DNA of 42,497 nt from a virus. The DNA lies in IMG/VR virus record IMGVR_UViG_3300045996_000560, positions 1 to 42,497 of that record. The stretch is one strand, 5' to 3'. The translations under genes were made by a program, and so were the position numbers. The notes below the pieces were generated by a model, which ran no database searches, had not been told where the DNA came from, and saw only the letters and a program-made list of their open reading frames with translations. Of the stretch, positions 7,131 through 20,248 are shown one piece after another; the first letter of the stretch is position 1; each line of letters opens with the position of its first letter.

Positions 7131-7503
7131 CTATCCTGTCACCGTATTTTTTGGGTTTCAGCTTCATGGCAAGCCATTTGCGGGACTCAACCATCAGGCG
7201 GGAACGATCAACCGTGTCACCTGTCACCGTTTCCCTGACACCATCCGCCTTCGTCGTGACCTTCTCCCCAAGGATGGGCGTATCAGCGATATCGCGAATT
7301 TCTTCCGCTAAAACATCGGCTTGGGCTTCGCGCGCACGTGCGTATTTCTCCTGAAACTCTGTGTTGTTGAAGAGCCAACGGTAAATCGTGCCTTGTGCCG
7401 GCATATCCTCATCTTTGGATATACTGAGCAAACTGCGCCCTTCGGCAATGCGGGCGCATATCTCATCGGCCATTTCAGGTGTGTAATCAGACGGTCGTGC
7501 CAT
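6949..7503 (-). CDS. terS: Terminase small subunit
   Basis: This 184-residue protein should recognise the packaging site and load TerL. The N-terminus (residues about 5-60) is a helix-turn-helix of the type seen in Sf6-like small terminases: EICARIAEGRSLLSISKDE, followed by a GTIYRWL recognition helix. A helical oligomerisation region follows (about 62-125). The tail is Gly/Ala/Pro-rich. AAGGAA precedes the ATG at 7503. Its last 182 bases also encode the first 60 residues of TerL in another frame, so the tail is probably free to vary. Confidence 0.88.
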   Translation of the reverse strand: MARPSDYTPEMADEICARIAEGRSLLSISKDEDMPAQGTIYRWLFNNTEFQEKYARAREAQADVLAEEIRDIADTPILGEKVTTKADGVRETVTGDTVDRSRLMVESRKWLAMKLKPKKYGDRIDGKFEHTGKDGGAIVQEHRGLPALMGEINSRIASRGTANALPVSGTDGPVLPADKGTEKA

Positions 7504-7554
7504 TGATTTCCTTCTTGCGATTTTACCAAACAGGCGGGAGGACGGTAAAACAGT

Positions 7555-7704
7555 TTATGCGTCAGGCTGTTCTTCCAGTGCCATTCCTAAATCTGCCAAC
7601 ATAAATCCGAGCGCCTGAAAAAAAATGTGCATCCCGTATTTATCGTTGATCTCATGCAAGGCCTTTTCGCATTCCTCGACGATTTTAACGTTGTCCTTTG
7701 TCAT
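7555..7704 (-). CDS. Small protein of unknown function, 49 aa
   Basis: This is a 49-residue ORF with AAGGAA eight bases before its ATG. The sequence begins MTKDNVKIVEECEKALHEIN and is amphipathic, probably two helices, with an acidic C-terminus. It is just upstream of terS in the same direction. A TTTTACC...GGTAAAA inverted repeat lies in the short space before terS. No family is recognised. Confidence 0.65.
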   Translation of the reverse strand: MTKDNVKIVEECEKALHEINDKYGMHIFFQALGFMLADLGMALEEQPDA

Positions 7705-7721
7705 CGTTTAGTTCCTTTCTG

Positions 7722-7934
7722 TTATGTCCACGGCAGTTCTATTTTGTGATGCCGCGTGGCTTTCATCACAATTTCTTTCAGAAGCGGTGCTGTCACCCAG
7801 TTCTTTTCCCCGAGATGGCGCACCCATGAAAGGATTTTTTCAGGCGTGTCCATCCGCTTAAGACTTATTTCGTAATTCTGACTCATGCTCTGATCTGAAA
7901 TTATCAGGTGGTTGTCTTCAATGTGAACCTTCAT
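7722..7934 (-). CDS. Small protein of unknown function, 70 aa
   Basis: The start chosen is the ATG at 7934 behind GGGGG, giving 70 residues (MKVHIEDNHLIISDQSM...). The first 25 residues look like beta strands, followed by a Trp-rich amphipathic helix (PEKILSWVRHLGEKNW) and a basic end. It overlaps the DnaB-N-like gene by 17 bases, so the two are probably made together. No family is recognised. Confidence 0.7.
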   Translation of the reverse strand: MKVHIEDNHLIISDQSMSQNYEISLKRMDTPEKILSWVRHLGEKNWVTAPLLKEIVMKATRHHKIELPWT

Positions 7935-8286
7935 ACTTACCCCCTTCGTGTTTGATAAAATCTTCCATGCTCTTCTGGTAGAATTTCGAATCTCTGACCG
8001 ATACATCAGCACTGCATACACAGTCATGGGACAGTAATAGCATCTTTCTACCCACCTCCTCTGATATCGACCATGGAGTAACGTCTATACCCTGTGCGCG
8101 CAGTTCTCTAGCTACACAGAAAACAGGGCGCAATTGCGGTGGAAAGTCATCTTTCGTCAGGGTGGTTCGATCAATATATCTGTTATCTATCAACATCATA
8201 CCGAGTAATTTTAACTGGTTGATGGTTTTGGCGTTGCTATCCATGCCGGCCATCCTTAACTCGAATGTATCGCTATCATTGTTCAT
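7918..8286 (-). CDS. Stand-alone DnaB N-terminal-domain-like protein
   Basis: This 122-residue protein resembles only the N-terminal helical domain of the replicative helicase DnaB. Residues about 24-80 hold LLGMMLIDNRYID, then a DDFPPQLRPVFCVARELRAQG segment, then DVTPWSISEEVGR. This order matches the DnaB family's 'first round of cleavage, deposit, next block' pattern of alternating helices. No RecA-type helicase domain follows, and none exists elsewhere in the window. In DnaB this domain forms the trimeric collar and contacts primase. A free copy could bind host helicase or primase; that is inference. GGGG sits just before the ATG, and a perfect hairpin lies upstream. Confidence 0.6.
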   Translation of the reverse strand: MNNDSDTFELRMAGMDSNAKTINQLKLLGMMLIDNRYIDRTTLTKDDFPPQLRPVFCVARELRAQGIDVTPWSISEEVGRKMLLLSHDCVCSADVSVRDSKFYQKSMEDFIKHEGGKYEGSH

Positions 8287-8307
8287 CCCCTACTTCTCCT
8301 CTGTTTG

Positions 8308-8332
8308 AACTACCGAGAAATTCTCGGTAGTT
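8308..8332. repeat. Perfect 25-bp inverted repeat
   Basis: AACTACCGAGAA, one base, TTCTCGGTAGTT: twelve perfectly paired bases per arm. It lies in the 130-bp gap upstream of the DnaB-N-like gene, about 20 bases before its start. No T run follows on either strand, so it is a weak candidate for an intrinsic terminator. An mRNA stability or processing hairpin, or a protein-binding site, fits better. Confidence 0.85.
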
Positions 8333-8357
8333 GCTAAGTGATTGAATTATTTCCGAT

Positions 8358-8371
8358 GTCGGAATTCCGAC
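8358..8371. repeat. 14-bp perfect palindrome
   Basis: GTCGGAATTCCGAC reads the same on both strands. It is in the same 130-bp intergenic gap as the longer inverted repeat at 8308-8332, 25 bases away. A dimeric regulator site is possible, but no second copy was noticed elsewhere. Confidence 0.6.
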
Positions 8372-8416
8372 CACGCTTTTGCCGCCTATCCCATCCTCCC
8401 TTGCTGCTTTGGTGGG

Positions 8417-8830
8417 TTACTTCACATCGGTGGTCAGAGAAACAACAAACCAGAACGGGCTTGCTTTCCTTTGCGCGATACTCACATACGCTTCTGCTTT
8501 TTCTTGTTTGGCTGCTGCCAGTTTCAGCGTGCTGTCTGTAATCGCATCTACAAGGGAAGCTACCGGCGTATCTTGGTTAACCAACGCCACGCCTTTGGGC
8601 TGCAAATTACTCAGGCTGTCGTTCAGTATCTTGATATTTTCTTCATAAACCTTAACAACGCGGTCTTGTTCTGCAATCACGCCGACATCTCGCGCATGAA
8701 ACATGTACGAACCTAGGCAGACACCCAAAATTGCCAACACGCCGAAAATCCCCAGAACGGTAATTTCATGGTCGTTTTTGATGCCTATGGCCGCGATAAC
8801 TAGAAAAAGTACCAAAATTGCAATAATCAT
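8417..8830 (-). CDS. Membrane protein with coiled-coil tail, 137 aa
   Basis: The ATG at 8830 has AGGAGAG just upstream, giving 137 residues. Two hydrophobic segments (about 2-17 and 24-41) form a membrane hairpin. A charged, probably coiled-coil region follows (about 50-120). A final hydrophobic stretch (SPFWFVVSLTT) may touch the membrane again. No family is recognised. It is in the middle of the left-arm small-gene cluster, not in the lysis cassette, so an inner-membrane role in takeover or exclusion is possible but unproven. Confidence 0.75.
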   Translation of the reverse strand: MIIAILVLFLVIAAIGIKNDHEITVLGIFGVLAILGVCLGSYMFHARDVGVIAEQDRVVKVYEENIKILNDSLSNLQPKGVALVNQDTPVASLVDAITDSTLKLAAAKQEKAEAYVSIAQRKASPFWFVVSLTTDVK

Positions 8831-8862
8831 ATCTCTCTCCTTGCTTGTGTTTAGGGTGGGGG

Positions 8863-8961
8863 TTAACTCATCAGCTTTGCAATATTCCATACGAGGCCGC
8901 AGAGGATCAGGTAGCCGACCACGACGAACCCAATAAAACCGAAGAATTCAGTGATGCCTAT
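8863..8961 (-). CDS. Possible 32-aa membrane peptide with non-standard start
   Basis: An open frame of 32 codons encodes ITEFFGFIGFVVVG plus more hydrophobic residues, a single membrane span ending in KLMS. There is no ATG, GTG or TTG in frame near the start. The best-placed codon is ATA at 8961, seven bases after AAGGA. A nearby ATG at 8968 is in another frame and ends after six codons. Either a rare start codon is used, or a one-base sequence error or mutation has broken the gene. Confidence 0.35.
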   Translation of the reverse strand: MGITEFFGFIGFVVVGYLILCGLVWNIAKLMS

Positions 8962-8982
8962 ATTTCATGTTCCTTTTTTTTG

Positions 8983-9117
8983 TTACGCGAGATCAGGCAA
9001 GAGACCAAGTATCACGGCTTTTCTTGCTTGAGACGGAGCGTCGTGCGGTTCAATTTCTCTTAGAAGTTTTTCAATCTTGGCCAATGTCGCTGCACGATTG
9101 TTACTTTCGTGGCTCAT
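8983..9117 (-). CDS. Small helical protein, 44 aa
   Basis: The ATG at 9117 is eight bases after AAGGAA. The 44 residues (MSHESNNRAATLAKIEKLLR...) form one long charged helix, then a short hydrophobic end (ILGLLPDLA). It is not recognised. It lies in a run of tightly packed small left-arm genes. Confidence 0.6.
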   Translation of the reverse strand: MSHESNNRAATLAKIEKLLREIEPHDAPSQARKAVILGLLPDLA

Positions 9118-9120
9118 ATT

Positions 9121-9498
9121 TCACTTTCCTTTCGTTTGTTGTTTAATCTCAGTAAAGAAATATCCCGCGATGTAATCGAAATCAGAACTATACGGCCATT
9201 CTTCGCCCTCTTCGTTGGGGTAGTTTTTTTGCTCGTCCAAAATCTCTTCTCGGACGTTATGGGTACGCAGCGTCTTGAGATATTCCTCGTATTGCTCGCT
9301 GTCTTCCCATTCGATATGGGGTTTGACATTGCCATACCCCGCAAATGCGAAATGCACTTGATCTGACCAGCCGCTATCTCTATCGAGGTAGTTATCACTG
9401 AGGTAATTGAGGCTGTCTTTTTCAAGTGCCTCTTTATCCTCATAGATTTTGATTTCTTGCGCTTCTGGGCAGTACGCAAACCATTTCTCGTCCATCAT
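9121..9498 (-). CDS. Acidic protein of unknown function, 125 aa
   Basis: This 125-residue protein is strongly acidic and rich in Tyr, Trp and Phe (segments IEWEDSEQYEEYL and EEGEEWPYSSDFDY). AAAGGAG precedes two adjacent ATG codons at 9498 and 9495; the second has the better spacing. No cysteine motif or enzyme motif is seen. The surface would be strongly negative, as in DNA-mimic inhibitors, but that is only a composition argument. Confidence 0.75.
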   Translation of the reverse strand: MMDEKWFAYCPEAQEIKIYEDKEALEKDSLNYLSDNYLDRDSGWSDQVHFAFAGYGNVKPHIEWEDSEQYEEYLKTLRTHNVREEILDEQKNYPNEEGEEWPYSSDFDYIAGYFFTEIKQQTKGK

Positions 9499-9513
9499 TT
9501 CGCTCCTTTGTGT

Positions 9514-9687
9514 TTAACCCTGAATCCGCGTTTTCTTAGTCGCCCCGCATTTACATTGCCTAACTCGCAAAATAGCGACAGGCCGACCTGCACGGTTCTC
9601 AGGGTCAAATATTTTGATCTCCTCGCAGAACTCGTATTGGTGGTCGTGCCATGCGCCGGTAATGAGAAATCGAATAAGTTTGATCAT
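9514..9687 (-). CDS. Small basic protein with CxC, 57 aa
   Basis: The ATG at 9687 overlaps the gcrA-like stop (ATGA). The 57 residues start MIKLIRFLITGAWHDHQYEF and end in a basic QCKCGATKKTRIQG tail. Cys21, Cys46 and Cys48 together with His could bind zinc. No family is recognised. It is translationally coupled to the gcrA-like gene. Confidence 0.65.
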   Translation of the reverse strand: MIKLIRFLITGAWHDHQYEFCEEIKIFDPENRAGRPVAILRVRQCKCGATKKTRIQG

Positions 9688-9872
9688 TTTTGTTCCTTTT
9701 GTTTAACCCTGTACAACTTACCGAGGATGGCGTTGCGGGTTAGGTTGGTGCCATACAGGTGGTTCATCAGTACTGTTGTGGCTCTGGCAGAAAAATTCAT
9801 GGAGAAATAAACTAGGTCCCTCTCCATACCCTCAGTCCACACCACGTTCCTGCCTTTACTCGGCTGGCTCAT
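9684..9872 (-). CDS. GcrA-like transcription regulator
   Basis: This 62-residue protein matches the N-terminal DNA-binding part of GcrA, the alphaproteobacterial cell-cycle factor that works with RNA polymerase and methylated GANTC sites. It has a VVWTEGMERDLVYF first helix and the hallmark LTRNAILGKLYR near residues 45-56 (TRNAVIGKVHR in GcrA). The C-terminal sigma-factor-binding region of full GcrA is missing. The ATG at 9872, seven bases after GGAGG, overlaps the upstream stop (ATGA). A phage copy may redirect or block GcrA-dependent transcription; that is inference. Confidence 0.7.
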   Translation of the reverse strand: MSQPSKGRNVVWTEGMERDLVYFSMNFSARATTVLMNHLYGTNLTRNAILGKLYRVKQKEQK

Positions 9873-10090
9873 TCCATCGCCTCCGCTTCCCGTACCGCGT
9901 CCCATACACGCTTGCGCTTGTAGGGCTCACGGCGCTTCACACGCTCCTCGGGCTTGACGGACTGTTTCTCGCTGGTCATGTGCCACTGGTGGCAATACGG
10001 GCAGCGATACGGCCGGAGGGGTGTGTCGTGGCCGAACTTGTACGCGGTGGCCTCGCCTTTGGTGGCGAATGTCTTTTTCCAGCAGGTCAT
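9869..10090 (-). CDS. Zinc-finger-like basic protein, 73 aa
   Basis: The 73 residues contain a compact CPYCHQWH motif (residues 30-37), together with Cys3 a likely zinc site. A very basic second half follows (VKRREPYKRKRVWDAVREAE). Small phage proteins of this form usually bind nucleic acid. It overlaps its neighbours by four bases on both sides, so it belongs to one coupled block with the gcrA-like gene. No specific family is named. Confidence 0.72.
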   Translation of the reverse strand: MTCWKKTFATKGEATAYKFGHDTPLRPYRCPYCHQWHMTSEKQSVKPEERVKRREPYKRKRVWDAVREAEAME

Positions 10091-10749
10091 GGGATAATCT
10101 CGGAAAGCACTTCATCCAAGGTTCCCTCACCGAACGCTAGTGACCTTGGCATCTTTGCACATCCCGCCCATTTCTTCGTCTGGTCGGGTGGCAAATAGCT
10201 TTGTAATTCTTGTCTCACCTTTGTCATGTAGTAGTATTCGCTCGATGCTTTCTTGCAGGCATCACAACGGCATTTGCGATTGTTATAGGCATCGATAGTT
10301 CCGTGTTTATATCCTGCACTATCCTGTTTCTGCCTTACCCACCGTGCCTTGGCTGCCGCCCTCATGCGCTGCTTTCCCTGCTCCGAGGAGCGTTTGTCCA
10401 CCTTGACGGTCTGCGGGGCGCATTGTGCCTTGCGGGTGGCTGAGATGGCTGCTTTGCGCGCTGCCGGCATGGGCGTGTAATCGGCCTCCCTGACGACCTT
10501 CGGCTCGTGCAGCGTCACGGTGATACCACGTGCCATGGCGACTTCCCGCATCCACCGCTTTGCGCGCTCACGGATCAGGTCGTCGGTGATGACGAGGGTT
10601 TCGCTCAGCAGCCCGGGCAGGAACTGGACTTTGGCGAACAGACCACACACCGTCGCGGCGGTGGTCAGGTCGGCCAGTCGGTACTGCCATTCCTCGGGGG
10701 TGAAGTTGTACGTCGGCGCCATCAGGCGGAGTTTGTCGCGGGCGCTCAT
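10087..10749 (-). CDS. Protein with CRCDAC cysteine motif, 220 aa
   Basis: The start chosen is the ATG at 10749, which overlaps the upstream stop and follows GAGGTG. The protein has 220 residues. Residues about 150-175 hold a GTIDAYNNRKCRCDACKKAS segment, a short cysteine motif found in many phage proteins of unknown function, often beside basic helices. The middle (about 90-135) is rich in Lys, Arg and Ala. Probably nucleic-acid binding; more is not justified. Confidence 0.75.
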   Translation of the reverse strand: MSARDKLRLMAPTYNFTPEEWQYRLADLTTAATVCGLFAKVQFLPGLLSETLVITDDLIRERAKRWMREVAMARGITVTLHEPKVVREADYTPMPAARKAAISATRKAQCAPQTVKVDKRSSEQGKQRMRAAAKARWVRQKQDSAGYKHGTIDAYNNRKCRCDACKKASSEYYYMTKVRQELQSYLPPDQTKKWAGCAKMPRSLAFGEGTLDEVLSEIIP

Positions 10750-10952
10750 GGTTGCACCTCGATGTTTCTGTATTCTGTGTCGAACGGGCTCATCATCGCC
10801 GCCATCCTGGCGTGTGCTTGGCCTGACACATCCACCTTGCGCTCGACCGTCTCCAGCCAGACGTATTCGTTTTCGATCTCGACCGGATACCACGCGAACC
10901 ACGGATACCAGTTGCCTAAATTTGAACGGCACTTCGACATTTTGAACCTCAT
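10746..10952 (-). CDS. Trp/Tyr-rich small protein, 68 aa
   Basis: The 68 residues contain an aromatic stretch (GNWYPWFAWYPVEIENEYVW), probably beta strands. The gene overlaps both neighbours by four bases (ATGA at 10746-10749 and 10949-10952). GGGGAG lies just before the ATG. Function is unknown. Confidence 0.65.
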   Translation of the reverse strand: MRFKMSKCRSNLGNWYPWFAWYPVEIENEYVWLETVERKVDVSGQAHARMAAMMSPFDTEYRNIEVQP

Positions 10953-11089
10953 CCCTGTCTCCCCTGTTGAACTTCACGTTTCAGCTGCTCATGTGCCGCG
11001 CGCTGCTTTGCTTTCAGGTCGCGGTGGTGTGCTCTGGTGTCCAGCGGGTGCGGCTTGCGGATACGCTGGATGCGGTGGATGGTGATCAT
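10949..11089 (-). CDS. Very basic small protein, 46 aa
   Basis: The 46 residues (MITIHRIQRIRKPHPLDTRA...) are about one third Arg, Lys and His and form a likely amphipathic helix in the second half. GAGGGA precedes the ATG at 11089. Both ends overlap neighbours by four bases, which supports real translation. Likely binds nucleic acid; no family recognised. Confidence 0.6.
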   Translation of the reverse strand: MITIHRIQRIRKPHPLDTRAHHRDLKAKQRAAHEQLKREVQQGRQG

Positions 11090-11352
11090 GCGTCCCTCGC
11101 TTTCAGCATTTCATCCGCGTACTTGTAGGCTTCCTGCGCTGCCATTCCCGGCCCCCATGCGCTCACAAGACCCTGCAGTGCCATGCCCGCAAACCAGTCC
11201 CGCAATTCCCGCTTACCTCCGTCACCCAATGCGAGGGACGGGACAATCCTTTCCATCTCGGCGCGCGCTGCTTTTTCTAATTCGCTGATCCTTTCCTCGT
11301 TTGCGGATGCCATCATTGCCCTGCCCAAGCTGCCATCGTCGTCGCGCTGCAT
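11086..11352 (-). CDS. Helical protein of unknown function, 88 aa
   Basis: This 88-residue protein has a charged helical first half (EERISELEKAARAEMER) and a Trp/Gly/Ala-rich second half (RELRDWFAGMALQGLVSAWG). The ATG at 11352 shares one base with the preceding stop (TAATG). An internal ATG pair at residues 13-14 could also start it. Unknown function. Confidence 0.7.
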   Translation of the reverse strand: MQRDDDGSLGRAMMASANEERISELEKAARAEMERIVPSLALGDGGKRELRDWFAGMALQGLVSAWGPGMAAQEAYKYADEMLKARDA

Positions 11353-11963
11353 TACGCACCACCATTGCAGGCTTGGCAGAACTCGCGGTCATGCGGGATA
11401 CCTGCGTTGTGCATCAGGGCGGCAACCGCGGCTTTCTTGGCGTCGGTGCGCTTCTCCGTTCCGTTCTCGGCCGGCAGCACGGTTTCCTTGTTCACCACAG
11501 GACGCTCGGCAATCTGCTTGACGCGCATGAGCTCGTTCCACTTGCGCTCACCGAAAAACTCAACGGCGAGTTTCCTGATCTCGGCGGGCTTGGGCTTGCG
11601 TGTCTCGCGGTCGCGCCAGAACTGGATGGCCTTCTCGATTGCACCCTGTGGCAGCGTCTCCAGGCATTCGATCCAGTCAGATGCCACGAGCGTCTTTGTC
11701 AGGGCTTCCGTTCCGTCTACCCAGTAATGCGACAACAGCGTGGAGATGCGCGCCGACAGCCATTCACGGCTTGGCGCCGGGTGTGCTTTGCGGGTGTCCT
11801 GCAGGAACGTGATCGCTGCCTGCCGCTCGGCTAGGTTCACGCTTTCCGGCACGATCCAGAAGCGATCACCAGTCAGTTCGCTTTCCCTGTCCGAGACGAG
11901 CCGCTTGAGCGAAGCCGTCAAAGTGGGCGTCTGTGGCTGATTTTCGAGGGTTGTGAGTTGCAT
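11352..11963 (-). CDS. Possible replication accessory protein, 203 aa
   Basis: The ATG at 11963 lies seven bases after AAAGGA. The 203-residue protein is mainly helical. Its ALTKTLVASDWIECLETLP and IEKAIQFWRDRETRKPKPAE segments resemble phage proteins located downstream of replication initiators and sometimes thought to load helicase. The C-terminus has a CQAC motif. It overlaps the replication-type gene by 98 bases in another frame. The assignment is by position and general look only. Confidence 0.6.
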   Translation of the reverse strand: MQLTTLENQPQTPTLTASLKRLVSDRESELTGDRFWIVPESVNLAERQAAITFLQDTRKAHPAPSREWLSARISTLLSHYWVDGTEALTKTLVASDWIECLETLPQGAIEKAIQFWRDRETRKPKPAEIRKLAVEFFGERKWNELMRVKQIAERPVVNKETVLPAENGTEKRTDAKKAAVAALMHNAGIPHDREFCQACNGGA

Positions 11964-12573
11964 GGGTGGATCCTTTCGGTGCGGTGTAATCGTTTGTCCA
12001 GCGGTCGTCGTTGAGCCAAGCAGCGCAGCCCTTGGCGTATCCCTTGGCAACCTCGTCGCTCTGCGCGTAGGCGATGGTTCCACGGATGATCGTGTCGGGT
12101 GTGGCGCGGGTGATTGCCTTCATCCAAGCGGCTCGGGCTTTGTCTACGGAGCCCGCTCTGGCCTTCGGGTAGATCGACCAGAAATCGGCGAAATCGTCGC
12201 GCGCGCTCTCCTCTACCTTTTCTGTCTTCTCTTGTGTCTCTGTCTCTGTCTTAGTGCTACACACTTCGGGAGGTATGGTTTTGGTTTCTGTATCATTTTG
12301 ATACGGAACCAAATAACCGCTATCAATCAATGCGTTGAGGTCAACTGTTGAAGTGGCTCCGATTTTTTGCGTCAGCCAGCGCGCATCACATGGAAGTTTG
12401 TTGCCCATCTGCGAAGCCAGCAGCCAAATCAGCATCAGGTGCGCCTTTGCAGCGTCCGGCAGGCGCGAAAATTCGTAGTCGTTCAGGAGTTCGCGGTGGA
12501 GTTTAATCCACGTCGGTTCGCGGTCTTTGTACTGCTGGAATTTTTCCCAGTTTTTGATCTGAAGGTATGTCAT
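11866..12573 (-). CDS. Replication initiation-type protein
   Basis: This 235-residue protein has an N-terminal winged-helix look (residues 1-95: MTYLQIKNWEKFQQYKDREP, WIKLHRELL, HLMLIWLLAS) like phage replisome organisers of the DnaD/O type. A low-complexity Thr/Glu linker follows (95-125), then a DFWSIYPKARAGSVDKARAAW domain (about 128-185) that is typical of the C-terminal half of such proteins. Its place next to rusA and the unknown gene that overlaps it fits a replication block. The ATG at 12573 overlaps the rusA stop. A phage origin could lie within it; no iteron cluster was seen. Confidence 0.72.
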   Translation of the reverse strand: MTYLQIKNWEKFQQYKDREPTWIKLHRELLNDYEFSRLPDAAKAHLMLIWLLASQMGNKLPCDARWLTQKIGATSTVDLNALIDSGYLVPYQNDTETKTIPPEVCSTKTETETQEKTEKVEESARDDFADFWSIYPKARAGSVDKARAAWMKAITRATPDTIIRGTIAYAQSDEVAKGYAKGCAAWLNDDRWTNDYTAPKGSTHATHNPRKSATDAHFDGFAQAARLGQGKRTDW

Positions 12574-12929
12574 CCCAACACCACCACAACCTGCCCGCCT
12601 TTGATGGGCTCGTCAGCGACGTTTACTGTGATGGGGCGAAACCGCACGTCGTCTATGCCCAAGGCCTTCGCAACACCGTCCAAGCCGCTTTTCATACGGC
12701 TCAGAAGTCCGTCAGCGTCCATGTGCCGGCGGGAGGGCTTGTGGAACGTGAGCGTCAGCGGAATGTCGCCTGCGGGGAATGTGTCGTGCGTGGCGTGTGG
12801 TGCCAAGCACATGAACCGCCACTCGCATCGCGCCTTGTATTTGGCTTTCGCCTTCGATGTGACGCGCCAATGCTTCCGCCCGTTGGGGGAAAGGTCGCTG
12901 TCAGGCCATGGTAGTGTTATTGTGATCAT
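12570..12929 (-). CDS. rusA: RusA-family Holliday junction resolvase
   Basis: This 119-residue endonuclease should cut four-way DNA junctions made by recombination or replication fork reversal. The N-terminal SPNGRKHWR motif (residues 14-22) and the acidic MDADGLLSRMKSGLDGV region (residues 70-86) with D71, D73 and D84, plus GIDD (D93, D94), are RusA hallmarks. Length matches the family. The ATG at 12929 has only a weak GGGCAAG before it. A strong GC hairpin ends eight bases upstream and could limit access of ribosomes. Confidence 0.88.
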   Translation of the reverse strand: MITITLPWPDSDLSPNGRKHWRVTSKAKAKYKARCEWRFMCLAPHATHDTFPAGDIPLTLTFHKPSRRHMDADGLLSRMKSGLDGVAKALGIDDVRFRPITVNVADEPIKGGQVVVVLG

Positions 12930-12936
12930 CTTGCCC

Positions 12937-12965
12937 GGCAGGGAGCGTTTTCCGCGCCCCCTGCC
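12937..12965 (-). promoter_or_regulatory. GC-rich hairpin just upstream of rusA
   Basis: GGCAGGGAGCG (12937-12947) pairs with CGCCCCCTGCC (12955-12965) at 10 of 11 positions around a 7-base loop. On the minus-strand transcript it lies between gapR and rusA and ends about eight bases before the rusA ATG. No T run follows, so it is not an intrinsic terminator. A role in translation or RNA stability is possible. Confidence 0.55.
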
Positions 12966-12981
12966 CCTTCTGTTCGCTTCG

Positions 12982-13260
12982 TTAAATCAATTCGAGTTGG
13001 ATTGCCGCGCAGTACGTTTGAAGCAGCTGGTTTTTCTCCCGCGCCTTCGCTTCGTCCTTGCGGATTTTGACCATGGCTTTGATCGTGGGAACGTCGAAGC
13101 CCTCTGACGCGGCCTGTTGCGAGAGTTCTTTCACATCAAGCCCGAGTGCCACGCGCTGCTCGTCAAGGCGCTCGAAACGGTCTACGTATTGCTTTAGAGC
13201 CGTTGCCGAGTTGGAACTGGTTTGCGTTTCGTCTTGTTGTTTAGCTGCAGATTTACCCAT
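12982..13260 (-). CDS. gapR: GapR-like DNA-binding protein (DUF2312)
   Basis: This 92-residue form starts at ATG 13260 behind AAGGGG. Residues about 17-92 match GapR: a QYVDRFERLDEQRVALGLD coiled coil, KELSQQAASEGFDVPTIK, then MVKIRKDEAKAREKNQLLQTY. In Caulobacter GapR binds overtwisted AT-rich DNA ahead of forks and polymerases. The frame stays open upstream to a TTG at 13341 with its own strong ribosome binding site, giving a 119-residue longer form. That leader runs through an intrinsic terminator (13274-13309). Confidence 0.85.
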   Translation of the reverse strand: MGKSAAKQQDETQTSSNSATALKQYVDRFERLDEQRVALGLDVKELSQQAASEGFDVPTIKAMVKIRKDEAKAREKNQLLQTYCAAIQLELI

Positions 13261-13341
13261 GTCATTCCCCTTCAAAAAAAAGGGATCACCCGTTACGGCA
13301 GGTGATCCCAGTTGCACAGAAGCTTTTTGAGTGATGGTCAA
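13261..13341 (-). promoter_or_regulatory. In-frame leader of gapR reading through the terminator
   Basis: A TTG at 13341 lies eight bases after GAGGAG. The frame (MTITQKASVQLGSPAVTGDP, then FFLKGND) continues without a stop into gapR, and the two Phe codons are the terminator T run. A ribosome moving through it would melt the hairpin. This could couple translation to read-through, or give a long GapR form. Inference from sequence layout. Confidence 0.5.
13274..13309 (-). terminator. Intrinsic terminator upstream of gapR
   Basis: On the minus strand GGGATCACC (13309-13301) and GGTGATCCC (13290-13282) form a perfect 9-bp stem with a 10-base loop, followed at once by eight T residues (13281-13274). 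This is a textbook rho-independent terminator. It lies after the cro and 42-residue genes and before the gapR ATG, where an early antitermination or attenuation point would be expected. Confidence 0.88.
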
Positions 13342-13356
13342 GGCCGTAACTCCTCG

Positions 13357-13485
13357 TTATGTAATCTCGTTTTGTTTTCCAGATATTCGCGATCTGTTCT
13401 CATAATCGGTTAGCGAATTTCGATACACCCTTGACTTGCCGCATAATTTGATTCTTGGTGGTTTTGTTTCCGGAAAAGGAAACAT
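13357..13485 (-). CDS. Basic 42-aa protein between cro and gapR
   Basis: The ATG at 13485 follows AGAGGTG. The 42 residues (MFPFPETKPPRIKLCGKSRV...) carry about ten Lys or Arg and end at 13357, so the stop nearly touches the ribosome binding site of the gapR leader. It is not recognised. Its position between an early promoter and a terminator, and its basic character, recall short antiterminators such as lambda N, but there is no sequence match to claim. Confidence 0.55.
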   Translation of the reverse strand: MFPFPETKPPRIKLCGKSRVYRNSLTDYENRSRISGKQNEIT

Positions 13486-13491
13486 AGACGC

Positions 13492-13509
13492 GCACCTCTT
13501 AGGGGGTGC
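13492..13509 (-). promoter_or_regulatory. Hairpin covering a ribosome binding site
   Basis: GCACCTC (13492-13498) and GGGGTGC (13503-13509) form a 7-bp stem with one wobble pair and a TTAG loop. In the minus-strand RNA the downstream arm is the GAGGTGC that serves as ribosome binding site of the 42-residue ORF, six bases before its ATG. This could keep that ORF silent until something opens the hairpin. Confidence 0.5.
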
Positions 13510-13513
13510 TTGT

Positions 13514-13771
13514 TTAGACGTGCCCTTGTCGGGATTGCAGTCCCGACTTAGGCGAATTTTTTTGTTTGGGTTGAGAAAGCACTGCCAAGGACTCTAGGCT
13601 TACGTTTTGTATGCCGCGCTGCTTTGCTGAATTTGCAAGATTCAGATGCTGCTTATGCGGGATACGCGAACGTTTACGCCATTGCCAGACCGCGTCCTCT
13701 GTAACTCTACAGTCGGTCGCAATGGTCGCGTAATCAGGCCAGAGCCCTAAGACATTCCGTACTTCTTTCAT
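13514..13771 (-). CDS. cro: Cro-like repressor
   Basis: This 85-residue protein is the first gene of the leftward early transcript, divergent from cI. Residues about 8-40 form a helix-turn-helix (DYATIATDCRVTEDAVWQWR, then SRIPHK), typical of Cro-type proteins. The tail is basic. The ATG at 13771 has no ribosome binding site. The predicted transcription start lies at or one base before the ATG, so the message should be leaderless. It presumably binds the GTAC-N5-GTAC operators; that is inferred from context. Confidence 0.75.
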   Translation of the reverse strand: MKEVRNVLGLWPDYATIATDCRVTEDAVWQWRKRSRIPHKQHLNLANSAKQRGIQNVSLESLAVLSQPKQKNSPKSGLQSRQGHV

Positions 13772-13776
13772 GGCTT

Positions 13777-13797
13777 AAATGTACAAAACGTACATTT
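13777..13797. promoter_or_regulatory. Operator between cro and cI
   Basis: AAATGTAC, five bases, GTACATTT is a perfect 21-bp interrupted palindrome. Its core on the minus strand, GTACGTTTTGTAC, is identical to two sites at 15752-15764 and 15787-15799. It overlaps the spacer and -10 box of the leftward promoter, so a bound dimer would block it. This is the expected CI/Cro site. Confidence 0.85.
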
Positions 13798-13806
13798 CAA
13801 AGTCAA
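13778..13806 (-). promoter_or_regulatory. Leftward early promoter
   Basis: On the minus strand TTGACT (13806-13801), 17 bases, TACATT (13783-13778). The start point should be near 13772-13771, at the cro ATG. The operator core covers the last part of the spacer and the -10 box in exactly the same phase as at the rightward promoter. Confidence 0.8.
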
Positions 13807-13843
13807 GACGATTTGTATTGAATTTTTTTGGTAGGTATTCTCT

Positions 13844-14542
13844 ATGACTGACACACCCGGAAAACGACTAATTAACCTTCGTAAATCAAAAGGCTTTAAA
13901 AAGCCGGAGGACGTCTGCGCGCGCACAGGTTGGAACGTGCATACATATAAGGCTCACGAAACAGGAGCCCGCAATCCAAAACCTGATGTTGCCGAGCAGT
14001 ACGCCAAGTTTTACGGGACAACGCCGGAATATATTATATTCGGCTCAACTGCCTCGTCTGACCATCAAGATGACGACTCAAAACGATCGTTCAACAATAA
14101 AAATACCAACCCTGCCTTGATTAATGTCAAGGACTCGCACGTCCCTGTCGTCTTATCCACTATGAAAATCCCCGTCTATGGCCCCGCAGGTGCAGGATCA
14201 GATGATCGTATTTATCATGCGGAGGATTATATTATAGGATGGGATATTATGCCGGATGCGTTGATTGGTGTTAAAGGTGCTTTTAAAGTTCTAATTCGCG
14301 GCTCCAGCATGGAGGAGCGCTACTTCGACGGCGAGAAAGCCGAAGTACACCCGTATAAACCCTGCATACCCGGCAAGGATTGCGTGATTGTCAGCGAACC
14401 TGATGGGGATATGCTTATCAAGCGATATCTTGGCGAGAATGCGACTGAGTATAAGGTCGCCCAGTTGAACCCACCAAAAACCTTTGCAATCAAGAAATCT
14501 AAAACTCGTGCAATTTATTACGTTATCGGGAGATCTGAATGA
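13844..14542 (+). CDS. CI-like repressor with LexA/S24 peptidase domain
   Basis: This 232-residue protein should keep the lytic promoters off in the lysogen. The N-terminal helix-turn-helix spans about residues 5-62. A linker follows, with AG dipeptides at 115-118 (GPAGAGSD) as candidate self-cleavage sites. The S24 domain has the catalytic serine S155 in IRGSSMEERY and lysine K193 in MLIKRYL, so induction by RecA-driven self-cleavage (SOS) is expected. The ATG at 13844 has a weak TAGG before it. The lipoprotein gene overlaps its end by four bases. Confidence 0.9.
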   Translation: MTDTPGKRLINLRKSKGFKKPEDVCARTGWNVHTYKAHETGARNPKPDVAEQYAKFYGTTPEYIIFGSTASSDHQDDDSKRSFNNKNTNPALINVKDSHVPVVLSTMKIPVYGPAGAGSDDRIYHAEDYIIGWDIMPDALIGVKGAFKVLIRGSSMEERYFDGEKAEVHPYKPCIPGKDCVIVSEPDGDMLIKRYLGENATEYKVAQLNPPKTFAIKKSKTRAIYYVIGRSE

Positions 14543-15027
14543 AATTTATTATCCCAATTTTCGCGTTGCTAAGCCTCTCCGCCTGCGCTGCCGGCAATTC
14601 CGCTAATATCTCACCACAGAAGGTAGCGACTTTTACGCATCATGAATTATGCGTGATGGGCGATTTTCACCCTTTAGATAAAGTGATCAAAGCCGAGAAG
14701 TTGCGCAGGAAAGCCGCCTGCTACCCCATCGAGGCAGAATGTAAAACGCATAAGCACCCAAGCGGGTGTGTAAAACTTCGCAATATTGCTTTGGCCGATG
14801 GCCTCCAAAAGATGGCTGAGCAGAAAGCCCGGCGCCAGAACGCCGCGCGCATATCCTCGCAGCAGAACTGGGGCGTCCAGCCCGGTCAGACAGTTTATGC
14901 GCCGTCCCAATGCGCCGGAACCATCGTTGCCGGCGTCTGCCATGGCGGCATCATCCCCAACCCTGCCCTCCAAAAAACCTGTCACGGCGAGATGTTGAAC
15001 GGCACTTGCACGGGGCCGATGTTTTAA
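14539..15027 (+). CDS. Lipoprotein co-transcribed with cI
   Basis: This 162-residue protein has a lipoprotein signal: MKFIIPIFALLSLSAC, with lipobox LSAC and Cys16 as the lipidated residue. The mature part has at least seven further cysteines, suggesting disulfides in the periplasm, and a Gly/Pro-rich C-terminal half. Its ATG overlaps the cI stop (ATGA), so it should be made in the lysogen, like lysogenic-conversion or superinfection-exclusion genes. No family is recognised. Its stop overlaps that of the opposing membrane-protein gene. Confidence 0.82.
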   Translation: MKFIIPIFALLSLSACAAGNSANISPQKVATFTHHELCVMGDFHPLDKVIKAEKLRRKAACYPIEAECKTHKHPSGCVKLRNIALADGLQKMAEQKARRQNAARISSQQNWGVQPGQTVYAPSQCAGTIVAGVCHGGIIPNPALQKTCHGEMLNGTCTGPMF

Positions 15028-15632
15028 TTGAAAACGATCCTGAATTGCGCGCCGTCGTGCAGATTACTGATCTCGATAATCGCATAACGCTCGTCCATGG
15101 CTGTCGTGTTCTTGATGGGGCTTTCTCCGGCTACAGGCTCAATGCGGCATAAGAAAGACGATGGGTGTATCGGCTTTTCAAACATGACAATGATCCGGGC
15201 GTCAGCTGGATGCCTGGTGATTACAGGCTCATTGCGAGCAGCAAGCGCCCGCTTCTCCTGCCTATTACTTCCATGTACCGTATGCGGAATAGAGACATTG
15301 CTATTCGGCTCTTTGTAGATATTCTTTTTCGAGATGAGGTTCAGACGCCCGTCATGTACCCTGTATTCGATTAAGGTCTGTTCACGGGTCGTATAAATGC
15401 CCGCGAATCGTGACCATATATTTAGGCACATATTGAGTATCCACATCGCAATCGCCATGGATAGCAGCGCGACGACGCCATATGACAGCGGCGCATAGGC
15501 CTGCATCGCCACGCTAAAGAAGCTGAGGCCTGTCATGGTGATTGCCACAAACGCGCCGACAGTCGCAATTCCGCTAGGACTGAAAAGCCATTTGAAAAAT
15601 AGATCTCTGAAGAATTTTGCGAGCCATGCCAT
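15024..15632 (-). CDS. Membrane protein in the immunity region, 202 aa
   Basis: The start taken is ATG 15632 (MAWLAKFFRDLFFKW...); a TTG at 15641 would add three residues. No strong ribosome binding site precedes either. Two membrane segments (about 19-43 and 48-72) are followed by a 130-residue soluble domain with a basic, Ser/Asn-rich part and probable beta strands. It is the only minus-strand gene between cI and the right operon, with its own promoter candidate at 15715-15742, so it may be expressed in the lysogen. Function is unknown. Confidence 0.75.
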   Translation of the reverse strand: MAWLAKFFRDLFFKWLFSPSGIATVGAFVAITMTGLSFFSVAMQAYAPLSYGVVALLSMAIAMWILNMCLNIWSRFAGIYTTREQTLIEYRVHDGRLNLISKKNIYKEPNSNVSIPHTVHGSNRQEKRALAARNEPVITRHPADARIIVMFEKPIHPSSFLCRIEPVAGESPIKNTTAMDERYAIIEISNLHDGAQFRIVFN

Positions 15633-15714
15633 AGAACGCAAGGTGCAACGATTCCGGTCATTGAGTCAAACCCCATTATTACGGTTAATAATCAGCTGTT
15701 TATGTCACGCCCCG

Positions 15715-15742
15715 ATTCTATCACCGTTGATATTTAAGGCAA
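15715..15742 (-). promoter_or_regulatory. Candidate promoter for the membrane-protein gene
   Basis: On the minus strand TTGCCT (15742-15737), 16 bases, TAGAAT (15720-15715). The start would lie near 15708, some 75 bases before the gene. It is divergent from the rightward early promoter and ends ten bases before the operator cluster, so the same repressor might also affect it. Confidence 0.5.
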
Positions 15743-15751
15743 AATAAAATC

Positions 15752-15799
15752 GTACGTTTTGTACATTTTGTACTTGACGTTTTGGTGTACGTTTTGTAC
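15752..15799. promoter_or_regulatory. Right operator cluster, three sites
   Basis: There are three GTAC-N5-GTAC sites: GTACGTTTTGTAC at 15752-15764, GTACATTTTGTAC at 15761-15773 (sharing one GTAC with the first), and GTACGTTTTGTAC at 15787-15799. Two are identical to the operator by cro. The third covers the spacer and -10 box of the rightward promoter; the first two lie upstream of its -35 box. Confidence 0.88.
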
Positions 15800-15802
15800 T
15801 TT
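15774..15802 (+). promoter_or_regulatory. Rightward early promoter
   Basis: TTGACG (15774-15779), 17 bases, TACTTT (15797-15802), with a start near 15809 and a 26-base leader to the first gene. Operator three starts at spacer position eight, exactly as in the leftward promoter, so both should respond to the same repressor in the same way. Confidence 0.8.
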
Positions 15803-15834
15803 TACCTCAGAGACAACAACTGAGGGCCACATAA

Positions 15835-16065
15835 ATGAAATACCAACTCGCCGCACTCCTGCTGCTCAGCGCACCGGCATTTGCCGACCAGCTGCCGAGC
15901 GAACAGGATTTCACCAAAGCAACCGAACAGGCTGTCCAGTCCGTCATGAAAAATGAAGGCTGGTGCGCCCGCGCCGTACCCGCACCGAAGTCCGGTCAGG
16001 TCGTCGTGTATTACGTCCGCGACCGTCATGGCCGTTGCGTGGCAACCTTCACGAAGGGGAAATGA
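15835..16065 (+). CDS. Small secreted protein, 76 aa
   Basis: This is the first gene of the right operon. A Sec signal peptide (MKYQLAALLLLSAPAFA) is predicted to be cut before DQLPS, leaving about 59 residues with two cysteines (GWCARAV, GRCVATF) that could form a disulfide in the periplasm. GAGGG lies eight bases before the ATG. Function is unknown; early export to the periplasm suggests a role at the cell envelope. Confidence 0.75.
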   Translation: MKYQLAALLLLSAPAFADQLPSEQDFTKATEQAVQSVMKNEGWCARAVPAPKSGQVVVYYVRDRHGRCVATFTKGK

Positions 16066-16066
16066 C

Positions 16067-16357
16067 ATGCATAACGTTCTCAACTTCCCCCGCCTGAACT
16101 CCTGCGCGCGCACGAAGCAGATCATCACCCGCGCACAGGAACTCGGCATCCTTGACCTGATCAACCGCGCCGGCCTGTGCATCGGTGACACCGTCCGTCA
16201 CAACACATATGGCTGGTCTGGCAAGATCATCGCGTTTGACCTCAAGAACATCTACGGCAAGCACATTGTCGTTGAAGTTCCCATGGGCGAACAGGTTCCC
16301 GTGGCGATCACCGTCGGCGCGACCATGCTGCGTCTGGTGAAGGAAGGTGTGGCATGA
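16067..16357 (+). CDS. Small protein of unknown function, 96 aa
   Basis: The ATG at 16067 follows AGGGG and lies just after the preceding stop. The 96 residues begin MHNVLNFPRLNSCARTKQII. The second half (GDTVRHNTYGWSGKIIAFDL, then VVEVPMGEQVPVAITV) looks like a small SH3-type beta barrel, as in KOW or SH3-like domains. No specific family is claimed. Confidence 0.7.
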   Translation: MHNVLNFPRLNSCARTKQIITRAQELGILDLINRAGLCIGDTVRHNTYGWSGKIIAFDLKNIYGKHIVVEVPMGEQVPVAITVGATMLRLVKEGVA

Positions 16358-16629
16358 CCGCACAACACACGCCAGAAAAAACACTCATGCAAGGCGCAAA
16401 TGAAACTCTGGATTTGATTACGTCACCATCCACAGTCTACGGGTCTGATTTTGTCGAGATTAGCGGCCATATCGACAGCAGAGTGTTTGGAGACATTAAA
16501 CGCGCCGTGAATAGCCATGAGCCGATGAAGGCCGCTTTGAAACTGGTGCAGGAAGCGCAGCGCGTGGGCGATTACGCCGCAGCCTTTGCCGCAGTAGATG
16601 CCGCCCTCAAACTCGCGGAGGCCGAATAA
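16354..16629 (+). CDS. Small helical protein, 91 aa
   Basis: The ATG overlaps the preceding stop (ATGA), and its own stop shares a base with the next ATG (TAATG). The 91 residues end in a long Ala-rich helix (ALKLVQEAQRVGDYAAAFAA...). Function is unknown. Confidence 0.7.
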   Translation: MTAQHTPEKTLMQGANETLDLITSPSTVYGSDFVEISGHIDSRVFGDIKRAVNSHEPMKAALKLVQEAQRVGDYAAAFAAVDAALKLAEAE

Positions 16630-16775
16630 TGACCGACCTCATCTCCACCGACTTCTCCGCCTACCTGTTCGACACCGCAAAGGCTCAGGCCATGGCGCAG
16701 TTTTCACAGACACCCACGGGCGCGGCTATGCCGACCCTCACCCCCAAAAACGACAACTCAAGGAGCCAGAAATGA
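16629..16775 (+). CDS. Small protein upstream of recT, 48 aa
   Basis: This 48-codon ORF (MTDLISTDFSAYLFDTAKAQ...) is linked by overlaps at both ends: TAATG with the 91-residue gene and ATGA with recT. The recT ribosome binding site (AGGAG) lies inside its last codons. No motif is seen; it may mainly couple translation of recT. Confidence 0.6.
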   Translation: MTDLISTDFSAYLFDTAKAQAMAQFSQTPTGAAMPTLTPKNDNSRSQK

Positions 16776-17623
16776 CCAATAACCTCCCCGCACTCACCCC
16801 AGTAGGCGACCTCACCAAAATGGCCGAGGCTATCGCCAAATCCAAACTGTTCGGCATGAAAAGCACCGAGGAAGCCCTCGCGCTGATGCTCATTGCACAG
16901 GCCGAGGGGCTGCATCCCGCAATCGCTGCACGTGACTACCACGTGATCAGCGGTCGCCCTTCACTCAAGGCCGACGCGATGATGGCGCGGTTTCAGGCGG
17001 CGGGCGGCTCTGTAAGCTGGTCTGTCCTCACCGACACCAACGCTGCAGCGACGTTCTCCCATCCCCAAGGCGGGACTGTTGAAATCACGTGGGACTTGGC
17101 GCGGGCTGCGCAGGCACAGGTGCTCGGCAATGCGATGTGGAAGAAATACCCCCGCCAGATGCTCCGCGCTCGTGTGTTGAGCGAAGGCATCCGCACGGTG
17201 TTTCCGGGTGTCGCGGTGGGCATCTACACTCCCGAGGAAACCGATGACTTCATCACGGCAGATAAGCCGACTGGCAAGCCCGCTGCGGAGAATGTCAAAG
17301 CAGCGAGGCCCGCCAGCCAGCAGAAGCCGAATGCGGTCGATGCTCAGGCTGTGGAAGTCGTTCCCGCTACCGAAGCGGAGATCAACATGGTTCTGGACGC
17401 GCTCAAGGAAGCAAAGTCCATGGAGGAACTGTCGGAAATCAAAGAAACGAAAATGCGCCCCATCGCTGACCGCGCACCGCCCGAGGAATGGCAGAAGATT
17501 GTGAAGGAGTCGCACAACTCCGTCGCCCGCATCACTCTCGCGCCGCATAAGAAGGCGCAGGACGAGGCAAAGGTCAACGGTACGCACATCAAGCCCGATG
17601 TTGTGGACGCGGTGACGGCATGA
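16772..17623 (+). CDS. recT: RecT-like single-strand annealing protein
   Basis: This 283-residue protein should anneal complementary single strands for phage recombination. Residues about 20-165 match the RecT-type core: EALALMLIAQAEGLHPAIAA, then HVISGRPSLKADAMMARFQ, and the KYPRQMLRARVLSEGIRTVF end. A Pro/Ala/Lys linker and a charged C-terminal helix follow (about 205-283), which may bind SSB. No RecE or lambda Exo-type exonuclease is seen beside it. SSB and NinB genes lie downstream in the same operon, which supports the assignment. Confidence 0.75.
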   Translation: MTNNLPALTPVGDLTKMAEAIAKSKLFGMKSTEEALALMLIAQAEGLHPAIAARDYHVISGRPSLKADAMMARFQAAGGSVSWSVLTDTNAAATFSHPQGGTVEITWDLARAAQAQVLGNAMWKKYPRQMLRARVLSEGIRTVFPGVAVGIYTPEETDDFITADKPTGKPAAENVKAARPASQQKPNAVDAQAVEVVPATEAEINMVLDALKEAKSMEELSEIKETKMRPIADRAPPEEWQKIVKESHNSVARITLAPHKKAQDEAKVNGTHIKPDVVDAVTA

Positions 17624-17874
17624 CGTGGGACGACCCCTACCGCACCGGATGGACGCAAGCCCCGCCTGTGATGGTAGCGGGTCAGTCCGAACGTGACTTC
17701 GAGATCGTTCTCCACACCTTTTTCCGTGAGCAGAACGAGATACGCCGCCAGAGAGCGACAACCGAATACTTCGCCGGAACGCCATTAGAGCGCATCAAGG
17801 ACGACGAACGCGGCACGAAACTCGACAAGCGCGGCAGAGCAGAACTTACAACCGAATACAACACAGGAGCGTAA
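17620..17874 (+). CDS. Small charged protein, 84 aa
   Basis: This 84-residue protein lies between recT and ssb and overlaps recT by four bases. It has an FEIVLHTFFREQNEIRRQRA helix in the middle and a charged C-terminal half (LERIKDDERGTKLDKRGRAE). A partner of the recombination proteins is plausible from position. No family is recognised. Confidence 0.7.
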   Translation: MTWDDPYRTGWTQAPPVMVAGQSERDFEIVLHTFFREQNEIRRQRATTEYFAGTPLERIKDDERGTKLDKRGRAELTTEYNTGA

Positions 17875-17876
17875 AT

Positions 17877-18317
17877 ATGGCCGGTTCAGTAAATCGTGTA
17901 ATCCTCGTAGGCAATTTGGGCAAAGATCCCGAAATCCGCAGCTTCGCCAATGGTGGCCGCGTGGCATCGTTCAGCATCGCAACTTCTGAAAGCTGGAAAA
18001 AAGACGGCGAGAAGAAGGAGCGCACGGAATGGCATAGGATCAGCGTCCTCAACGATAAGCTGGTCGATATCGTGGCGAAATACATCAAGAAGGGCGCGAA
18101 AGTTTACATCGAGGGTCAACTGGAAACCCGCAAATGGACCGATAAGGACGGCGCGGAGAAATACACCACCGAAGTCGTGCTGCGCCCCTTCAAAGGCGAA
18201 ATCACGATGCTGGACAGCAAAGGCGGCAAGGTCGAACACGACGAAGCGCCGGAAGCGGAAAGCACGGAGTGGGTCAACAAGCCTGACGACAAGATGGATC
18301 AAGAAATTCCCTTCTAG
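17877..18317 (+). CDS. ssb: Single-stranded DNA-binding protein
   Basis: This 146-residue SSB coats single-stranded DNA in replication and recombination. The OB fold covers residues about 1-110: the SVNRVILVGNLGKDPEIRSF start, FSIATSESWKKDGEKKERTE, and KGAKVYIEGQLETRKW are family hallmarks. The acidic tail ends DQEIPF, the usual site for partner proteins. Length is normal, though the linker is short. ACAGGAG precedes the ATG. Confidence 0.95.
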   Translation: MAGSVNRVILVGNLGKDPEIRSFANGGRVASFSIATSESWKKDGEKKERTEWHRISVLNDKLVDIVAKYIKKGAKVYIEGQLETRKWTDKDGAEKYTTEVVLRPFKGEITMLDSKGGKVEHDEAPEAESTEWVNKPDDKMDQEIPF

Positions 18318-18543
18318 GGATCGAGAAGGCCGGCGGCATGACACGGTAACAGCCTTATCTGGTGCGTCTGCGTGTTGGGGCTTTATTGGTTTTCCCGTCT
18401 AAACCAAGCTTTGTGGGGACTAAGGCATGATAGCCACATCGTAACACCTTGCCGGCTAGGGAGAACGACAACGCCCCGACCTACGAGCAAAAAAGAAAGT
18501 CGTGACAGCCGGAGAGACGGCAACAAATTTAAAGGTTTTTAAA
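18318..18543 (+). other. 226-bp gap between ssb and the HNH gene
   Basis: No convincing gene is visible. A 22-codon frame near 18360 has only a poor start. A GTG at 18502 is in frame with the HNH gene and would add 14 residues, but the ATG at 18544 has the better ribosome binding site. GCCGGC occurs at both ends of the gap's first 140 bases. It is the longest gap inside the right operon and could hold a promoter or small RNA; I cannot show either. Confidence 0.4.
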
Positions 18544-18915
18544 ATGTCCCCGCAACCAAAACTTCCCCGCATTGAAGACCCACAGCATCTTGCATTTATC
18601 CGCACGTTGCCCTGTGTGAAATGCAATGCAAAGCCTTGTGAAGCAGCCCATATCAGGCGCGGCACGGATGGCGGCACCGGACGTAAACCGAGTGACAAAT
18701 GGGCGGTTCCTCTTTGCCATGCTTGCCACGCTCTACAGCATCAGAAAGGCGAGAAATTTTTCTGGGGAGATATAGAGTCGGCGCGCCAACTCGCCCACAA
18801 CCTCCACCTGCTGAGCGGCTTTGCACGTGACGGAAAGAAATACCACGACACAATGACCGCAGCCGGCGCAATTGCTGCAGCGCGTCCGAAGTTTGCGTTT
18901 TACGGGAGGGCATAA
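18544..18915 (+). CDS. HNH-type nuclease-like protein (DUF968/Ref-like)
   Basis: The 123 residues carry paired zinc cysteines C24 and C27 (LPCVKCNAKP), then EAAHIRRG (H36), a GTGRKPSDKW stretch, and PLCHACHALQH with C58, C61, H62 and H66. This is the DUF968/Ref-type HNH arrangement, as in RecA-dependent nuclease Ref of phage P1. In a recT-ssb-ninB setting it probably works in recombination. The ATG at 18544 is eight bases after AAAGG. Confidence 0.75.
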   Translation: MSPQPKLPRIEDPQHLAFIRTLPCVKCNAKPCEAAHIRRGTDGGTGRKPSDKWAVPLCHACHALQHQKGEKFFWGDIESARQLAHNLHLLSGFARDGKKYHDTMTAAGAIAAARPKFAFYGRA

Positions 18916-19103
18916 TGGCACGGAAAAACAGATTGTACGGCGGGATGCTGGTTGACGAGAATGAAACCGTCGAGACGCTTCAAGCAAAGATCGACGCCAA
19001 GCAACAGGAAATCTGGGCTTTGGCTTGCTGCCGAGATGCGATGCGGGAAGAGCGTTCGAGGGAATTTCAAGCGCAGATCGATAAGGTGCGGGGGAAAGTA
19101 TAA
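18915..19103 (+). CDS. Small coiled-coil protein, 62 aa
   Basis: The start overlaps the preceding stop (TAATG), and the stop overlaps the ninB start. The 62 residues include a long charged helix (ETVETLQAKIDAKQQEIWAL, then REERSREFQAQIDKVR), probably a coiled coil. It is set between the HNH gene and ninB; function unknown. Confidence 0.7.
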   Translation: MARKNRLYGGMLVDENETVETLQAKIDAKQQEIWALACCRDAMREERSREFQAQIDKVRGKV

Positions 19104-19609
19104 TGCAGTTTTTCATTCTCCGTGACGCTGAGCGCCGTGACCGTTGTTTGTCGTTCCTGCGCGCGCTGAACCTGAGCAGCCTGTGGTCGGTGAAGATCGA
19201 GCCGTACAAGCCGAAGCGCTCTGACGCGCAGAACCGGCTTTACTGGGCGTACATCAACGCCATCGCTGACCAGCTAGATTACGACGCCGAAGCTCTGCAC
19301 TGGCTGCTTAAAAAGAACTTCCTCGGCTTTGAAGTGATCGAAGTGCTTGGCGAGAAGGTGATTATGCCGCGCAGCTCGACCGGTTTGAAGGTGAAGGAAT
19401 TCGCGGATTACCTCCGCAAGATCGAGATATTCGCCGGGGAGAAAGGGCTGATGTTGCCGAACCCGGATGATAGACGCTACGCCCTCAACGAGCCCCAGTC
19501 TGCCCCCGTTGTGCCCTCAACGGTTGTACAACCCCCAAAGAACCCCGCGCTGGCAGACCGCGGGACTTCTTACACAGAGCAAGCAAAGCAGATGGAGAGC
19601 GTGAGATGA
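19103..19609 (+). CDS. ninB: NinB-family recombination protein
   Basis: The 168 residues contain the NinB signature KRSDAQNRLYWAYI near residues 38-51, then a helical DALHWLLKK-type region and an EFADYLRKIEIFAGEKG segment. NinB (lambda Orf) binds single-stranded DNA and SSB and helps RecA or annealing proteins load. The last 40 residues are Pro/Val-rich and poorly conserved. It fits with ssb and recT upstream. Confidence 0.85.
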   Translation: MQFFILRDAERRDRCLSFLRALNLSSLWSVKIEPYKPKRSDAQNRLYWAYINAIADQLDYDAEALHWLLKKNFLGFEVIEVLGEKVIMPRSSTGLKVKEFADYLRKIEIFAGEKGLMLPNPDDRRYALNEPQSAPVVPSTVVQPPKNPALADRGTSYTEQAKQMESVR

Positions 19610-20105: not shown

Positions 20106-20224
20106 TGGGTAAACGCTTCGATAAATGCCCTAACTGCCGAGCGAAGGATTTTGACACATGCAAATGCAGTTATTGGGAAGCCTTTCACGCGCAGCAAAAG
20201 AACAACCAGAAGAAAAAGAAATAA
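20102..20224 (+). CDS. Zinc-ribbon-like small protein, 40 aa
   Basis: The ATG overlaps the upstream stop (ATGA). The 40 residues hold CPNC and CKC (MMGKRFDKCPNCRAKDFDTC...), a four-cysteine zinc-knuckle pattern, and a Lys-rich tail (NNQKKKKK). Likely a nucleic-acid-binding peptide. Confidence 0.65.
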   Translation: MMGKRFDKCPNCRAKDFDTCKCSYWEAFHAQQKNNQKKKK

Positions 20225-20248
20225 CCAACCCCGCGCAAGGAGAATGAA

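Follow-up and report, generated by a model that had tools for sequence, protein, structure and literature searches.

A strong predicted intrinsic terminator between cro and gapR in a temperate phage, a probable early gate at the lambda tR1 position

The window analysed here, the whole stretch of 42,497 nucleotides, is a complete temperate phage genome of 42.5 kb. It is called complete because a perfect direct repeat of 127 bp occurs at both ends (1-127 and 42371-42497), which reflects either the assembly of a circle or terminal repeats. The plus strand carries the genes for a cI-type repressor, integrase, RecT, SSB and NinB, while a cro-like gene, gapR, rusA, rep, terminase, portal and the head genes are found on the minus strand. 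RecT, SSB, NinB and integrase (16598-24723, plus strand) lie downstream of cI in the same direction, with the replication and structural genes on the opposite strand. An additional plus-strand frame at 20870-21499 is strongly matched by phrog_12600 (3.8e-67), the function of which is unknown. Beyond the integrase, on the opposite strand to it, a frame at 25557-26690 (minus strand) very strongly matches a DNA repair exonuclease (phrog_704, 3.8e-119). The early region has the order cI and, divergent from it, cro, orf42, the terminator, gapR, rusA and rep. The local GC content is 45%, compared to 55% genome-wide. The coordinates of the features are collected in Table 1.

Table 1. Features of the early region (positions in the window; SD, Shine-Dalgarno sequence)
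Feature	Position	Strand	Details
cI-type repressor	13844..14542	+	HTH and S24 peptidase-like; divergent from cro
Early leftward promoter, probable	13778..13806	-	TTGACT-17-TACATT; overlaps the AAATGTAC/GTACATTT palindrome
cro-like regulator, 85 aa	13514..13771	-	carph-isopro HTH NF046037, 3.7e-07, below the curated cut-off; position as for the cro-like genes of relatives
orf42, possible second early gene, 42 aa	13357..13485	-	SD AAGAGGTG; same frame as TTG-gapR; uncertain
SD AGGAG for TTG 13341	13350..13354	-	anti-SD duplex -8.2 kcal/mol
GTTACGGC, SD/start spacer segment	13343..13350	-	could pair without mismatch over 8 nt with GCCGTAAC of the terminator loop (13299-13292), as a putative competing helix
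TTG leader, 27 in-frame codons through the hairpin to the gapR ATG	13261..13341	-	open frame; SD-led start
Terminator hairpin	13282..13309	-	9 Watson-Crick pairs and 2 inner pairs; loop CCGTAA
T8 tract of the terminator	13274..13281	-	directly 3' of the hairpin
gapR, 92 aa	12982..13260	-	PF10073, 2.6e-17; own ATG; SD AAGGGG just upstream, anti-SD duplex -8.3 kcal/mol
rusA-like resolvase	12570..12929	-	next gene after gapR; adjoins cro in relatives

The minus-strand sequence of the hairpin, GGGATCACC TG CCGTAA CG GGTGATCCC, confirms the 9-bp terminator stem with eight T's that had been described in the first-pass annotation, and extends it by an inner T.G and an inner G-C pair to 11 pairs in total. 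Folded alone, the hairpin has a free energy of -19.3 kcal/mol. Hairpin and T8 tract together ranked first in terminator scans of positions 10000-18000 and 1-13400, and they formed the only minus-strand site that passed a stricter scan of the whole window; the structure is thus clearly above chance. With a stable GC-rich hairpin followed by a run of T's it has the form of an intrinsic (Rho-independent) terminator, and termination in vivo is predicted to occur at the T8 tract. A search of Rfam gave no RNA family match.

Transcription of the leftward early genes most likely begins at the TTGACT-17-TACATT site. At this promoter and within cro, a palindrome (AAATGTAC-N5-GTACATTT) and ACGTTTTGTA repeats were found (13777-13797, 13808-13818 and 13601-13612), which look like repressor operators and are annotated as putative. 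No Shine-Dalgarno sequence is apparent in front of cro (13771-13806, minus strand), the ATG of which follows the -10 element by about 7 nt, and the cro mRNA may thus be leaderless. Just past the cro stop, the SD of orf42 is contained in a small hairpin, GCACC/GGTGC (13485-13516, minus strand), which could couple the translation of orf42 to that of cro. The stop codon of orf42 (TAA, 13359-13357) lies 15 nt upstream of TTG 13341 and 47 nt upstream of the terminator hairpin. Whether orf42 is a gene is uncertain because its codon usage is not gene-like (p = 0.69). Protein searches found no homologue, and on these two grounds a role of its product as an N-like antiterminator appears unsupported. 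TTGACC 13341 was considered as another promoter and dismissed, as no -10 element could be seen by eye.

The product of gapR carries a GapR domain that scores 62.6 bits against a gathering cut-off of 22.6 for PF10073; the NCBIfam cut-off for an equivalog of Caulobacter GapR was missed (49.3 vs 140). Its similarity to other phage proteins starts just after ATG 13260. The ribosome sites of this ATG and of the upstream TTG 13341 are about equally strong (-8.3 vs -8.2 kcal/mol), and we infer that ATG 13260 is the start normally in use. A promoter scan revealed no separate promoter for gapR.

Upstream of gapR, a strong ribosome site, a TTG start at 13341 and 27 codons running through the hairpin into the gene had been proposed, and all of these elements were found. 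The TTG (13341-13339, minus strand) is separated from AGGAG (13354-13350) by an 8-nt spacer, the hairpin begins 32 nt downstream of it, and both other frames contain stops. The proposed 119-residue GapR is accommodated insofar as the leader frame joins gapR, but the extension of 27 residues is not needed, since gapR has a strong start of its own. The terminator therefore lies within an open frame that has its own ribosome site, which is the arrangement of a pyrBI-type attenuator.

As a control for the open frame, 37 strong terminators from this phage and related phage DNA (about 0.84 Mb, or 1.69 Mb for both strands) were inspected. For seven of them a gene starts no more than 100 nt downstream, and the frame was open across the hairpin in six of these seven, the window's own terminator included. 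The openness of the frame is thus uninformative by itself. When the leader was shuffled upstream of the fixed hairpin, an SD-led in-frame start arose in 7% of the shuffles with a 4-base SD and in only 1% with a 5-base SD. The SD-led start at TTG 13341 is mildly unusual, and given the latter value it may be genuine. In codon usage, the leader's 26 codons did not differ from shuffles without stops (p = 0.15), in a comparison of low power in which cro also scored weakly (p = 0.11) and gapR gave 0/1000.

Viral and genome collections were searched for the cro-terminator-gapR junction, at the DNA level in phage records and at the protein level with patterns for gapR, cI, cro, rep, terminase and portal, and no contig with the junction was found. 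The hairpin, with or without the open frame, was present in none of the relatives found. Among the RusA relatives, a cro-like gene adjoins or overlaps rusA with no terminator in between in about 40 contigs, of which many are nearly identical. The closest syntenic relatives, L003 and L010, likewise have cro directly followed by rusA, with no terminator, gapR or 42-codon ORF at this place; both also have recT, ssb and terS in common with this phage, and L003 has rep too. Compared to these rusA relatives, the stretch from orf42 to gapR is extra. Because in the nearest relatives cro abuts rusA with nothing between, terminator and gapR seem to have arrived, or to have been retained, together as a single cassette. 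The same layout was not found elsewhere: among 86 other phage gapR loci there is not one whose in-frame extension upstream harbours a strong terminator.

The early operon of lambda has the layout cro - nutR - tR1 - cII - O - P. The terminator described here occupies the position of tR1: it lies on the early transcript that runs away from cI, just past cro and ahead of the genes for DNA replication. It differs from tR1 in that it is an intrinsic terminator of hairpin and T8 tract, that gapR is the next gene, and that searches revealed neither cII nor an N-like gene or a nut-like site. We consider the locus to be probably an ordinary early gate of the lambda tR1 kind, with a strong factor-independent terminator, read-through by leakage or antitermination, and at most a minor contribution of translation. 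Transcripts initiated at the promoter near 13806 would carry cro and perhaps orf42 and would mostly stop at 13281-13274. The genes gapR, rusA and rep would be expressed from the share that reads through, due either to leakiness of the terminator or to an antitermination factor, and read-through is the presumed route to gapR. GapR would usually begin at ATG 13260 via its own ribosome site, and the TTG-led frame would be incidental or would lower termination slightly at most. No antiterminator gene or family was recognized among the scanned proteins, nor was a nut-like site, and no boxA was seen in the leader by eye. The first-pass annotation had regarded the terminator as a gate for the whole left arm. 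Its position as a gate after the first early genes is supported, and its control may or may not reach over the whole left arm: a scan gave no sigma70-like sites between 13274 and 8853, and the weaker matches left of 8853, which are at or below chance level, could still be promoters.

Translational control of the terminator, in one direction or the other, is possible. In the version put forward in the first-pass annotation, a ribosome starting at TTG 13341, or restarting there after orf42, would prevent termination and make the 119-residue GapR, and an untranslated RNA would yield only cro and orf42, similar to the pyrBI leader of E. coli. This has a precedent in the pyrL terminator, which is blocked by a translating ribosome (PMC5021804; PMC10135430). 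As in pyrBI, a ribosome could open the terminator hairpin, because the frame is open across it. The scarcity of such SD-led starts among the shuffles, the strong anti-SD pairing at the TTG and the short distance from the orf42 stop, which permits a restart, all speak for this version. A moderate effect of translation on termination is also possible according to a race model of ribosome and polymerase with assumed rates, because 35-56% of the ribosomes would reach the hairpin in time if initiation takes 1-2 s, and more if it is faster.

Measurements of such spacings in E. coli point the other way. With lambda tR2 at 30 bp from an AUG, translation reduced the efficiency of termination by only about 10%. 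Terminators located in the initial 100 bp of coding regions functioned well, and termination was no longer repressed when the stop codon preceded the hairpin by more than 27 nt (PMC4824070). By this E. coli measure, from which the host polymerase may differ, the 32-nt spacing between TTG and hairpin falls into the regime of an effect of about 10%, and the orf42 stop at 47 nt lies outside the repressing range. A strong translation-driven switch at the hairpin is thus less likely, although pausing could alter this, as in pyrBI. The construct closest in geometry is plasmid W48 of Li et al. (PMC4824070), in which lambda tR2 after the ninA start is also a phage intrinsic terminator about 30 bp past a start in a short open frame; that frame ends 16 bp past the terminator, whereas the frame here runs on into gapR. 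Unlike pyrL, which is a 135-bp gene of its own for a leader peptide and is coupled through UTP-sensitive pausing, the frame here is fused to gapR; the stretch before the hairpin is also shorter than in pyrBI, with no U-rich pause region ahead and no pause site found. Further points against the proposal are that the leader's codon usage is not distinct from shuffles, that gapR has its own start, and that an RNA ending at the terminator would offer no stop codon to ribosomes from the TTG. Of the first-pass proposal we therefore retain the gating by a terminator after the first early genes, and regard the translation-coupled switch as unlikely.

Control in the reverse direction is less likely still. 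Here, GTTACGGC (13350-13343) or TTATGCGGCA near 13445 would pair with the loop and the 5' side of the terminator and delay the hairpin, leading to read-through, and a ribosome on orf42 or at the TTG would remove the competitor and favour termination. The perfect 8-nt complementarity between GTTACGGC and GCCGTAAC has a p of 0.005-0.015 in local shuffles, as a match chosen after the fact. In folds of successive RNA prefixes, the GTTACGGC helix outcompetes the hairpin until the RNA reaches about 13287, and the delay is gone without the half at the ribosome binding site; these are equilibrium folds only. With a leader from 13486, the hairpin at 13286 was less formed than in all 150 of 150 shuffles, but with another leader start the value was unremarkable. 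Depending on leader length and end point, both picked after the match had been seen, p ranged from 0 to 0.35, and the completed terminator is far more stable than the competing helix. A delay of the hairpin by the GTTACGGC helix is thus weakly and post hoc suggested. If real, it would mean that translation favours termination, the reverse of the first-pass model. A full pseudoknot between GTTACGGC and the loop of the closed hairpin was dismissed, as only about one free base remains on each side of the 8-nt loop segment. A gate in which the leader ribosome site and the terminator loop are mutually exclusive RNA partners is similarly improbable; the ribosome supply at TTG 13341 or on orf42 would then set the share of transcripts that reach gapR and the replication genes, and entry into replication would be coupled to the translation state of the host.

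Finally, the terminator might belong to an inserted moron-like gapR cassette and limit read-through without regulatory meaning, in line with the direct contact of cro and rusA in relatives and with the low local GC content, but we consider this very unlikely, since a terminator upstream of gapR, with no separate gapR promoter seen, would as insulation silence its own cargo.

If the locus is a plain gate, the reading that we favour, it would be a case of an intrinsic terminator at the tR1 position, in a group of phages about which little is known, with gapR entering the early operon together with a terminator. If translation controls the gate, in either direction, it would provide the phage with a compact means to gauge the ribosome supply of its host before committing to replication.
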